Below, piece after piece: positions 8,930-12,267 of a stretch of DNA of 33,998 nt. A program made the position numbers and the translations under genes. Under the pieces are notes generated by a model. It ran no database searches, was not told the origin of the DNA, and worked only from the letters and a program-made list of their open reading frames with translations. The stretch's first letter is position 1. Each line of letters starts with the position of its first letter. Origin of the DNA: an uncultured Nitrosomonadales bacterium. Its GTDB lineage: Bacteria; Pseudomonadota; Gammaproteobacteria; Burkholderiales; Gallionellaceae. The DNA lies in assembly GCA_903915035.1 (NCBI GenBank), contig CAIWRI010000071.1:1-33998 (forward strand). Reading direction: 5' to 3'.

Positions 8930-10435
8930 ATGGCTACGTCTTGGGAAATCGTCATCGGGCTGGAAGTGCATACGCAACTGTCCACCAATACCAAAATCTT
9001 TTCGGGTGCCTCCACCACATATGGTGCCGAACCTAACACCCAGGCGGATGCCGTCAGCATCGCGCTGCCGGGCGTATTGCCTGTGCTGAACAAGGGTGCG
9101 GTCGAACGCGCTGTCAAGTTCGGCCTGGCAGTGGGTGCGCATATCGCACCGCGCTCGGTGTTTGCGCGCAAAAACTATTTTTATCCTGACCTGCCCAAGG
9201 GCTATCAGATCAGCCAGTTTGATCTGCCAGTGGTGGGCATGGGTGCAATTACCATTCAGGTCGAACCGTTATCGGGAAAAGCAGCGCCCTATGAAAAAGT
9301 AGTGCGCATCACCCGTGCCCATTTGGAAGAAGATGCCGGAAAATCGGTGCATGGCGCATCCCTTGGCATGACCGGCGTGGATCTGAATCGTGCCGGTACG
9401 CCGTTGCTGGAAATCGTCTCCGAGCCGGATATGTGTTCTGCTGCTGAAGCGGTCGCCTATGCTAAAACTTTGCATAATCTGGTGCGCTGGATCGGCATTT
9501 CCGACGGAAATATGCAGGAAGGCTCGTTCCGCTGCGATGTGAACGTCTCGGTGCGTAAACCCGGCGAGGCGCTGGGTACGCGCCGCGAAATCAAGAACCT
9601 TAATTCGTTCAAGAATATGCAGCAGGCGATCGACTACGAGGTACAGTGGCAAATCGACACCATCGAAAATGGCGGAAAGATCCATCAGGCGACCATCCTG
9701 TTTAATCCGGATACCGGCGAGACGCGTGCCATGCGCAGCAAGGAAGACGCGCACGATTATCGCTATTTCCCTGATCCTGATCTGTTGCCGCTGGATATTT
9801 CTGCCGAATTTCTCGATGCGATGCGCGCCACCTTGCCCGAACTGCCGGAAGCATGCCGTGCCCGTTATATTAACGAGCTGAGTCTGTCAGCCTATGATGC
9901 CGCTAGCCTGACCGGTTCGCGCGAAATGGCGGATTATTTCGACACAGTACTGGCAGCGCTTGCTCCCTCTCCTCAATCCTCTCCCGCAAGCGAACGTGAA
10001 AATCAATCTTCGACCCTTGCCAAATTGTGTGCCAACTGGCTGATCGGTGAAGTCAGCGCGCAGCTCAATCGCGACGGGCTGGAGATGGCGCAATGCCCTG
10101 TTTCGACACAGCAAATGAGCGGCATGCTGATACGGATTGCGGATAACACTATTTCCAACGCAGGCGCGAAGGAAGTGTTCCGCACGCTCTGGTCCGAAGG
10201 TGGTGAGGCGGATTTGATTATTGAGTCGAAAGGCTTGAAGCAGGTATCCGATTCAGGTGCAATTGAAGCACTGGTAGATGAGATCATCGCAGCGAATGCC
10301 GACAAGGTTGCCGAATACCGCAGCGGCAAGGACAAACTGTTCGGCTTTTTCGTGGGATTAGCGATGAAAGCCAGCAAGGGCAGCGCCAATCCTGCACAAC
10401 TGAACGAAGTGCTGCTGAAGAAACTGGCGGGATAA
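8930..10435 (+). CDS. gatB: Asp/Glu-tRNA amidotransferase subunit B, with repeat-derived insertion
   Basis: A 501-residue GatB from the ATG at 8930 ([17 protein letters not shown]), preceded by AAGGA; an upstream extension overlapping gatA is unlikely. The kinase-like cradle domain shows [23 protein letters not shown] and [17 protein letters not shown]. The C-terminal YqeY-like helical domain ends in [16 protein letters not shown]. GatB phosphorylates and amidates the tRNA-bound carboxylate. Unusually, residues of about 345-358 ([14 protein letters not shown]), between TVLAAL and LAKLCANWL, look like a translated palindromic repeat whose right arm has decayed. This lies at the junction towards the helical domain and should be tolerated; the frame is intact. 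Confidence 0.96.
9962..10003. repeat. CCCTC-type repeat remnant inside gatB
   Basis: The plus strand carries CCCTCTCCTCAATCCTCTCC followed by CGCAAGCG, which resembles the left arm and loop of the CCCTCTCC...GGAGAGGG palindromes common in proteobacterial intergenic DNA. The expected GGGAGAGGG right arm is not preserved. It is in frame and adds about 14 codons. Confidence 0.55.
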
Positions 10436-10831: not shown

Positions 10832-10846
10832 GCACTGCCGTTTAAA

Positions 10847-10923
10847 CCAGTAGGAGAGCGTGATTGTAAAATCACCGCCGAAGGCGTAACACCCGTAACC
10901 GCTCAGGCACAAAGAACTATTGG
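10847..10923 (+). ncRNA. Glycine riboswitch, aptamer 1
   Basis: The P1 stem is CCAGTAG (10847-10853) with CTATTGG (10917-10923), including one G-U pair. Inside are GGAGAGCG, a GTGATT/AATCAC hairpin, the conserved core CGCCGAAGG, and CGCTCAGGCACAAAGAAC. This is a slightly degenerate form of the family CTCTCAGGTAAAAAGGAC strand. A short linker joins it to aptamer 2, the usual tandem arrangement. Glycine riboswitches control glycine-cleavage genes, and gcvT follows directly. Confidence 0.85.
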
Positions 10924-10932
10924 TACAGGCAA

Positions 10933-11090
10933 ATCTGGAGAGCGCTGGAATCAGGAATACTGATAGCCGGCCACCGAAGGGGCACACGAATATCGTCATT
11001 TCCGCAAAAACTGAAATCTAGTCATTTAACTGGATTCCGGGTCAGGCCCGGAATGACAAATTTGTAATCTCTCAGGTATCAAGGACAGAT
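10933..11090 (+). ncRNA. Glycine riboswitch, aptamer 2, with expanded P3 arm
   Basis: P1 is ATCTG (10933-10937) with CAGAT (11086-11090). The 5' side has GGAGAGCG and a hairpin GCTGG...CCGGC with inner ATCAG/CTGAT, then the conserved CACCGAAGGGGCA. The 3' side is the near-canonical CTCTCAGGTATCAAGGACAG. Between the two conserved blocks the variable arm is enlarged by about 63 bp of palindromic repeat (10995-11057), so this aptamer is roughly twice the usual size. Because the insert is self-complementary it may stack out as an arm and leave the glycine-binding core intact. Confidence 0.88.
10995..11057. repeat. Palindromic repeat inserted in aptamer 2
   Basis: The ends GTCATTTCCG and CGGAATGAC are inverted repeats with a one-base bulge. 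An inner hairpin ATTCCGGG (11034-11041) / CCCGGAAT (11047-11054) with a 5-nt loop shares the right end. The motif GGATTCCGGGTC...CCCGGAATGAC resembles dispersed repeats seen in many proteobacterial intergenic regions. I see no target-site duplication. Confidence 0.7.
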
Positions 11091-11091
11091 G

Positions 11092-11128
11092 GGCGCAGCG
11101 CGAAATCGCGCTGCGCCTTTTTATTTTT
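11092..11128 (+). terminator. Intrinsic terminator, expression platform of the glycine riboswitch
   Basis: GGCGCAGCGCG (11092-11102) and CGCGCTGCGCC (11107-11117) form an 11-bp perfect GC-rich stem with a 4-nt loop, followed directly by TTTTTATTTTT. It begins two bases after aptamer 2 ends and stops 11 bp before the gcvT ATG, so if formed it would block the whole operon. CAGCGC in its left arm is also complementary to GCGCTG at 10942-10947 in aptamer 2, a possible alternative pairing. Family knowledge suggests glycine turns the operon on; the switching mechanism here is inferred. Confidence 0.85.
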
Positions 11129-11139
11129 GAAAGCCTGCG

Positions 11140-12267
11140 ATGACGCTAAAAACTACCTCTCTGAATGCAGTCCACCGCGAAACGGGTGCCAAAATGGTCG
11201 ACTTCGGCGGCTGGGATATGCCGGTTAATTACGGCTCGCAAATAGATGAACATCATCAGGTGCGACGCGATTGCGGCATGTTCGACGTATCGCACATGCG
11301 CGTGGTTGACATCCAAGGTGAGGGCGTGCGGGAATTCTTGCGCTATCTGCTGGCAAACAATGTAGATAAGCTGACCTTGCCCGGCAAGGCGCTTTATTCG
11401 GCCATGCTGCTGGAAAACGGCGGTGTAATCGACGATCTTATCGTGTATTTCATGGGTGAGTGCTGGTTCCGTATCGTGGTCAACGCAGGCACCGCAGACA
11501 AGGACATCGCCTGGATGAAAAAACAGGCAGGGGAATTTGTCGTCCCTCACCCTAACCCTCTCCCGGAGGGCGAGGGAACACAATCAATCGTCATCACTTC
11601 CCGCGATGATCTGGCGATGGTCGCCGTACAGGGGCCGAATGCACGTAGCAAAGTATGGTCGGCGCTGCCGGGCAGTAAGGAGCTGACCGAAAAACTGATT
11701 CCGTTCAGCGCGGCAGCAATGGACAGCATGTTCATCGCCCGCACCGGTTATACCGGCGAAGACGGATTTGAGATCATGCTCCCCGCCAAAGCCGCGCCCC
11801 TCCTATGGACAAAATTGAAAGATAACGGCGTCAAACCCATTGGTCTGGGCGCACGTGACACGCTGCGTCTGGAAGCGGGCATGAATCTCTACGGACAGGA
11901 CATGGATGAAACCGTGGGTCCGTTAGAGTCGGGGCTTGCCTGGACGGTCGACTTAAAAAGCGAACGCGACTTTATCGGCAAGGCTGCACTGCTGGCAAAC
12001 CCGCCAAATCAGAAACTGGTGGGACTGTTGTTACTGGACAGAGGCGTATTGCGCGGGCATCAGAAAGTGCACACCGCGCAGGGCACCGGTGAGATCACCA
12101 GCGGCAGCTACTCACCTACCCTGGAAAAATCCATCGCACTGGCCCGCGTGCCGAAAGACGTTGCCATCGGCGACACGGTGCAAGTGGCAATTCGCGATAA
12201 GCTGCTTACCGCTCAAGTGGTAAAATATCCGTTCGCACGAAATGGCAAGGCAGTCGTGAGCCTTTAG
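11140..12267 (+). CDS. gcvT: Glycine cleavage system T protein (aminomethyltransferase), with repeat-derived insertion
   Basis: A 375-residue GcvT that passes the one-carbon unit from the H-protein-bound aminomethyl group to tetrahydrofolate, releasing ammonia. Family motifs are [26 protein letters not shown] and [21 protein letters not shown]. Residues of about 136-146 ([11 protein letters not shown]) have no counterpart in the E. coli protein as I recall it, and are encoded by a CCCTC-type palindrome inserted before [19 protein letters not shown]. The frame is preserved. The gene sits 11 bp after the riboswitch terminator with only a weak ribosome-binding site (GAAAG). It is first of gcvT-gcvH-gcvP. 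Confidence 0.96.
11544..11576. repeat. CCCTC palindrome inside gcvT
   Basis: CCCTCTCCC (11556-11564) and GGGCGAGGG (11568-11576) form a 9-bp stem with one mismatch and a 3-nt loop. It is preceded by CCCTCACCCTAA, the usual leading part of this dispersed repeat type. It is translated in frame as [11 protein letters not shown]. Confidence 0.8.

Follow-up and report, generated by a model that had tools for sequence, protein, structure and literature searches.

The window is a 33,998-nt stretch of contig CAIWRI010000071.1, from an uncultured member of the Gallionellaceae. It carries gcvT with gcvH and gcvP downstream, and upstream of gcvT lies a leader with two glycine riboswitch aptamers and an intrinsic terminator as the expression platform (Table 1). 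Aptamer 1 scores above the gathering cut-off of the Rfam model RF00504 (32 bits). With the same model, aptamer 2 is not reported even at E ≤ 1, probably because its enlarged P2 and P3 arms break the score. Nevertheless, we found its core motifs (GGAGAG, CACCGAAGGGGCA, AATCTCTCAGG, and GGACAGATGGG), all of which are also found in relatives, and folding yields the P1/P2/P3 arrangement of an aptamer. So, judging by these conserved motifs and by comparison with relatives, this region appears to be a second glycine aptamer and to function as one.

Table 1. Features of the gcvT leader and of the repeat within it (positions in the window).
Feature	Position	Strand	Evidence or remarks
Glycine riboswitch aptamer 1	10841..10929	+	RF00504, 60.2 bits, E 3e-10
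Glycine riboswitch aptamer 2, repeat-bearing (putative)	10930..11093	+	Motifs common to relatives; aptamer-like predicted fold
P2 arm of aptamer 2	10943..10972	+	30 nt versus the usual 15-18; TGGAATCAG in common with G090/G116
Basal P3b stem, 5' side	10987..10994	+	Opposite 11058-11064 in the predicted fold; final base is the C of the CGTC tag
CGTC-REP unit 1, decayed	10994..11020	+	CGTC-ATTTCCGC-AAAA-ACTGAAAT-CTA; compared with intact units of relatives
Whole element, inverted dimer GTCATT...AATGAC	10995..11057		79% identity with a relative's riboswitch copy
CGTC-REP unit 2, stem intact	11031..11058	-	(T)GTC-ATTCCGGG-CCTGA-CCCGGAAT-CCA
Basal P3b stem, 3' side	11058..11064	+	Predicted fold
Intrinsic terminator (expression platform)	11091..11128	+	12-bp stem, then a T run
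gcvT, regulated gene	11140..12267	+	PF01571, E 2.8e-79; gcvH and gcvP downstream

A 63-bp palindromic element is placed exactly at the tip of the P3b hairpin of aptamer 2. As originally predicted, it starts with GTCATT and ends with AATGAC. It was also predicted to be a self-complementary repeat, and it is palindromic, but it is not one clean repeat: it consists of two inverted hairpin units. The right unit (unit 2) has a perfect 8-bp stem (11034-11041 with 11047-11054) and a 5-nt loop, while the left unit (unit 1) keeps six of its eight stem pairs, with two broken, around a 4-nt loop. The units are tagged by CGTC at 10994-10997 and by TGTC at 11055-11058 on the minus strand, so that the tags lie on the outside. 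The idea that the repeat had replaced the arm does not hold, as the basal P3b stem persists below the element; the arm has been extended instead. For the P3 arm of aptamer 2, the predicted fold has a z of −3.0 and is better than that of each of 200 shuffled sequences. As for the P2 arm, it is possibly the deleted remnant of a second insertion, of the type B that is seen in G090 and G116.

The architecture of the element fits an inverted heterodimer of the CGTC-REP super-family whose left unit has decayed. The hallmarks of this super-family are a CGTC or TGTC (or CCTC) tag, an 8-9 bp stem that starts with AT, a 4-5 nt loop, and a CCA tail, and head-head dimers predominate and are often heterodimers; its members include dRS3 of Neisseria and RPE-4 and RPE-6 of Rickettsia (Di Nocera, De Gregorio and Rocco 2013, PMC3733652). 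The window element has the tag, an 8-bp stem starting with AT, a loop in that range, a CCA tail (on unit 2, with CTA on unit 1), and the head-head arrangement of an inverted heterodimer. We collected 42 dimers with the tags outside, including four in riboswitches. A pattern search of the fetched loci identified 80 REP units, 74 of which have a CCA tail (all 80 loops are of 4 or 5 nt because the pattern fixes the loop at these lengths). Membership in REPIN/RAYT was rejected because the tag is CGTC rather than GTAG.

The original prediction, which called the element dispersed, is borne out for the units but not for the exact sequence. In the genome that the window comes from, a search with the pattern GTCATT-N-AATGAC matched this site, and the full-length 63-mer is single-copy. 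However, the same genome contains about eight other REP units at seven other places (E up to 0.054), and 11 of 13 relatives have 6 to 49 REP matches per genome, as expected for a multicopy dispersed family. Full-length copies do occur in congeners, where an inverted heterodimer of 67-69 bp is found at many unrelated loci with unrelated flanks. This dispersal suggests that the element can move, presumably by transposition. We also considered a longer element that would include shared flanks, but this was ruled out: dispersed units have varied flanks, which show a weak bias at most.

We parsed 136 Gallionellaceae leaders. The P3b arm of aptamer 2 is 20-35 nt long in 118 of them, which disposes of the repeat as an ancestral arm common to all, and it is 50-165 nt long, with a large insert, in the other 18. 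A repeat-free version exists close by, as had been anticipated: the nearest relative of the window's gcvT (G059) has an ordinary 22-nt arm. In P2 of the same aptamer, 107 leaders have 15-18 nt, 4 have 30-38 nt, and 25 have 83-160 nt, with a large insert in the tip. Taking the two tips together, 41 of the 136 leaders have at least one large insert. In contrast, the P3 segment of aptamer 1 never departs from 17 nt (135 of 135 leaders), its loop is fixed as ACACCC or ATACCC, and the linker varies by two bases only.

At least four families of dispersed repeats supplied the inserts at the two tips, so the original claim that repeats shape riboswitch architecture was, if anything, too narrow. In P3b, we found CGTC-REP monomers or dimers in eight genomes (G000, G001, G010, G012, G035, G048, G053, and G065), a second element nested inside a REP in two (G071 and G141), an element of about 150 bp with terminal inverted repeats in three, and a type of 54-61 nt in five. 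The P2 inserts comprise two additional repeat families, the nested element (as the reverse complement of the copies in G071 and G141), and singletons. Representatives of the other insert types that we tested are likewise dispersed in their genomes. The claim that the conserved positions are untouched also stood up: the core motifs CACCGAAGG and GGACAGATGGG are kept in all 18 leaders with P3b inserts. Folding predicts that P3a closes and carries the extension in every insert-bearing P3 arm, and terminators are about equally frequent and equally stable in these leaders and in insert-free ones. Insertions were also found in the spacer between the terminator and gcvT. In two leaders (G080, locus L327, and G124, locus L252), a repeat downstream of aptamer 2 is seemingly inside the loop of the riboswitch's terminator hairpin.

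Beyond the family, a REP-specific pattern had a single match in 399 genomes of the order, which is likely a chance match within a coding region, but the pattern has narrow length limits, requires the end ATCTCAGG, and misses even known Gallionellaceae cases, so this is no evidence of absence. Worldwide, the matches listed include long P3b arms in Comamonadaceae, Thauera, Clostridia, and others; among the loci that we read from these matches, no long P3b arm outside the Gallionellaceae contained a CGTC-REP. A glycine aptamer of Henriciella pelagia (L200) holds TCATCCTGAGCGAAGTCGAAG in its P3b arm. We take this sequence to resemble another common dispersed repeat, in which case the presence of repeats in aptamers may extend to the Alphaproteobacteria.

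On a gcvT tree (132 rows, quick IQ-TREE), the REP-bearing leaders do not form one clade (AU test, P = 5e-69), and several REP-bearing rows have nearest relatives with ordinary arms (G035 next to G122, G001 next to G075, G053 next to G015, and G000 next to G059). The starred branches of the tree require no fewer than 9 changes to explain the REPs, at least 10 to explain P3b inserts of any kind, and at least 17 in the case of P2 inserts, where a change may be either a gain or a loss. The smallest possible number of independent gains lies below these counts because five of the REP-bearing leaders (G001, G012, G053, G010, and G035), from four genera, have similar flanks inside the arm. In particular, G001 and G012 have 13 identical flank bases and a near-identical junction (CGAAAAACCAGTT followed by GTCATT) despite belonging to different genera, and the motif in these flanks is inconsistent in the flanks of dispersed copies. 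Some of these five copies may therefore go back to one insertion that was spread by recombination or was lost elsewhere. The other insert types remain separate events.

We propose that dispersed repeats of several families have entered the gcvT leader of the Gallionellaceae time after time and that the architecture of the RNA filters them (we put the probability of this account at about 0.78). The repeat would be transcribed as a long hairpin that lengthens P3 and leaves the glycine pocket, the contacts between the aptamers, and the terminator untouched, so that the switch would stay in working order. Selection would retain insertions only at free sites, namely the P3b and P2 tips of aptamer 2, the loop of the terminator, and the spacer between it and gcvT; the P3 segment of aptamer 1 and the linker would accept none. 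The proposal builds on the identity and dispersal of the element, the repeat-free relatives, the insertion of several families, the intact core motifs, and the predicted folds. For the Gallionellaceae, we infer that the response to glycine is retained and that the insert is nearly neutral. A stronger version is that mobile repeats are raw material for the switch, with the leader as a recurrent landing site and the hairpins as functional parts of the aptamer-2 arms that now retune switching. This seems doubtful to us.

The same filtering has to be weighed against other ways of obtaining long arms. If the long arm were an ancestral P3b that most relatives have lost, then the similar REP flanks in five leaders from four genera would be easy to understand, and REP-bearing arms should turn up in essentially all deep branches. 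This was not seen, gcvT genes with a REP in the leader do not group together as a clade, and 118 of the 136 leaders have short arms. Also, the same element of about 68 bp is found at unrelated loci with unrelated flanks, and other leaders have different repeats at the same tip. We consider this explanation very improbable. A rival that deserves more credit is that gcvT leaders were exchanged horizontally or by gene conversion and carried a few insertions across lineages: this would explain both the near-identical junctions of G001 and G012 and the conflict between the REP distribution and the gcvT tree. Yet it does not account for the variety of repeat families that share a tip; P3b alone has at least four kinds of insert. 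As a full explanation it is possible but rather unlikely; exchange of leaders complements filtered insertion and does not replace it.

Another idea is that hairpin tips are a preferred target of the element family or of its transposase, which would make riboswitch stem-loops true insertion hotspots. The high incidence of inserts at the two tips suggests this, and some REP dimers do lie within longer palindromes (Di Nocera 2013, PMC3733652). A rough estimate, which assumes that each genome has tens of repeats, some 300 kb of intergenic sequence, and 20 bp of tips, yields fewer than one expected tip insertion among 136 genomes, compared with the 41 leaders that have inserts. However, this is a weak argument for a hotspot because of shared ancestry and because of the insertions in the spacer, which occur at a broadly similar frequency between the terminator and gcvT. 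Furthermore, the flanks of 38 dispersed dimers have no excess of complementarity (permutation P of about 0.95). As the loop of the terminator and the spacer have insertions too, and as there is no preference for inverted-repeat flanks, we favor insertion filtered by architecture and find hairpin targeting quite unlikely. The insert might instead be regulatory: the REP hairpin could alter folding kinetics, pausing, read-through of the terminator, or RNA stability, and it could be kept for retuning the switch. Inserts are always predicted to be closed extensions of P3, the pairing of the basal stem is retained even in the decayed copy of the window, and repeats recur at the same arm in many lineages. 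Against this, the core and the terminator are unchanged in sister genomes that have no repeat. The insert types share neither sequence nor size (50-165 nt), which is not suggestive of one selected function, and the spacer and the terminator loop receive insertions as well. A regulatory role is therefore unlikely in our judgment.

Filtered insertion gains independent support from a studied switch. The tandem gcvT riboswitch of N. gonorrhoeae has a 73-nt loop with two stem-loops in P3 of aptamer 2, and it responds to glycine (PMC13104608), so a working switch can tolerate a long loop there. Like the window leader, it has an enlarged aptamer-2 P3 loop and a normal aptamer 1. It differs in having a translational expression platform, whereas the window leader has a terminator, and in the identity of the insert, which in the DUS-bearing relatives that we read contains a DUS hairpin and not a CGTC-REP. 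We found these relatives in a genus (L424-L430) whose loci contain the 10-mer GCCGTCTGAA at high density. We read six of its aptamer-2 P3 arms, which are 85-91 nt long, and five have a DUS hairpin (GCCGTCTGAA...TTCAGAC); G441 has a near copy, and G284, from the same genus, has a short aptamer-2 arm without the DUS hairpin. From the DUS and from matching coordinates, the genus would be Neisseria. (DUS are not mentioned in PMC13104608.) We had also considered that the arm in this genus might be dRS3, but this was rejected because it holds the DUS hairpin.

Neither the repeat family nor the riboswitch is new, and long P3 loops are known as well. S. lithotrophicus is a member of the Gallionellaceae. 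It is listed among the CGTC-positive species (PMC3733652), but the REPs described there lie between or inside coding genes, in contrast to the one inside a riboswitch aptamer in the window, and a text search of that paper found no mention of riboswitches. Similarly, the window leader resembles other tandem RF00504 switches of gcvT operons in its two aptamers, conserved core, terminator, and downstream gcvT-gcvH-gcvP genes, but its aptamer-2 P3b is enlarged by a dispersed repeat and its P2 is enlarged as well. The nearest precedent that we found comes from the pneumococcal trp operon, upstream of which a BOX element separates two T-box riboswitches (PMC3049150). This, too, is a dispersed repeat within a riboswitch leader, and the leader apparently remains functional, but the element lies between two aptamers rather than within an aptamer arm, and it is a single case. 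In the open-access papers searched, we found no report of dispersed repeats inside a riboswitch aptamer, nor of several dispersed-repeat families in the same two arms of one aptamer.

Because the repeats are caught at different positions across genomes, they amount to a natural insertion scan of the riboswitch, in which the P2 and P3b tips of aptamer 2 are free and the P3 segment of aptamer 1 and the linker are fixed. According to work cited in PMC13104608, gcvT switches form a pseudoknot between a poly-C P3b loop and a G tract after aptamer 2; the fixed P3 loop of aptamer 1 agrees with this pairing. There is also a practical consequence, as Rfam-type scans can call a tandem switch a singlet when a repeat occupies one aptamer. 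More broadly, these arms illustrate a possible route from a genomic parasite to an RNA domain.

Repeats are also seen within coding sequence. The gcvT gene of the window itself bears a palindromic repeat (CCCTCACCCTAACCCTCTCCC...GAGGGCGAGGG) as an in-frame insertion at 11544-11576, and at about 9960-10010 of the window the gatB frame contains a stretch that resembles a decayed copy of a similar repeat, again in frame. In three other loci (L046, L047, and L048), CGTC-REP copies adjoin or interrupt a sequence that reads like the hinge motif of P-type ATPases (GMxGDGIND), which suggests intragenic REP insertions in several genomes.
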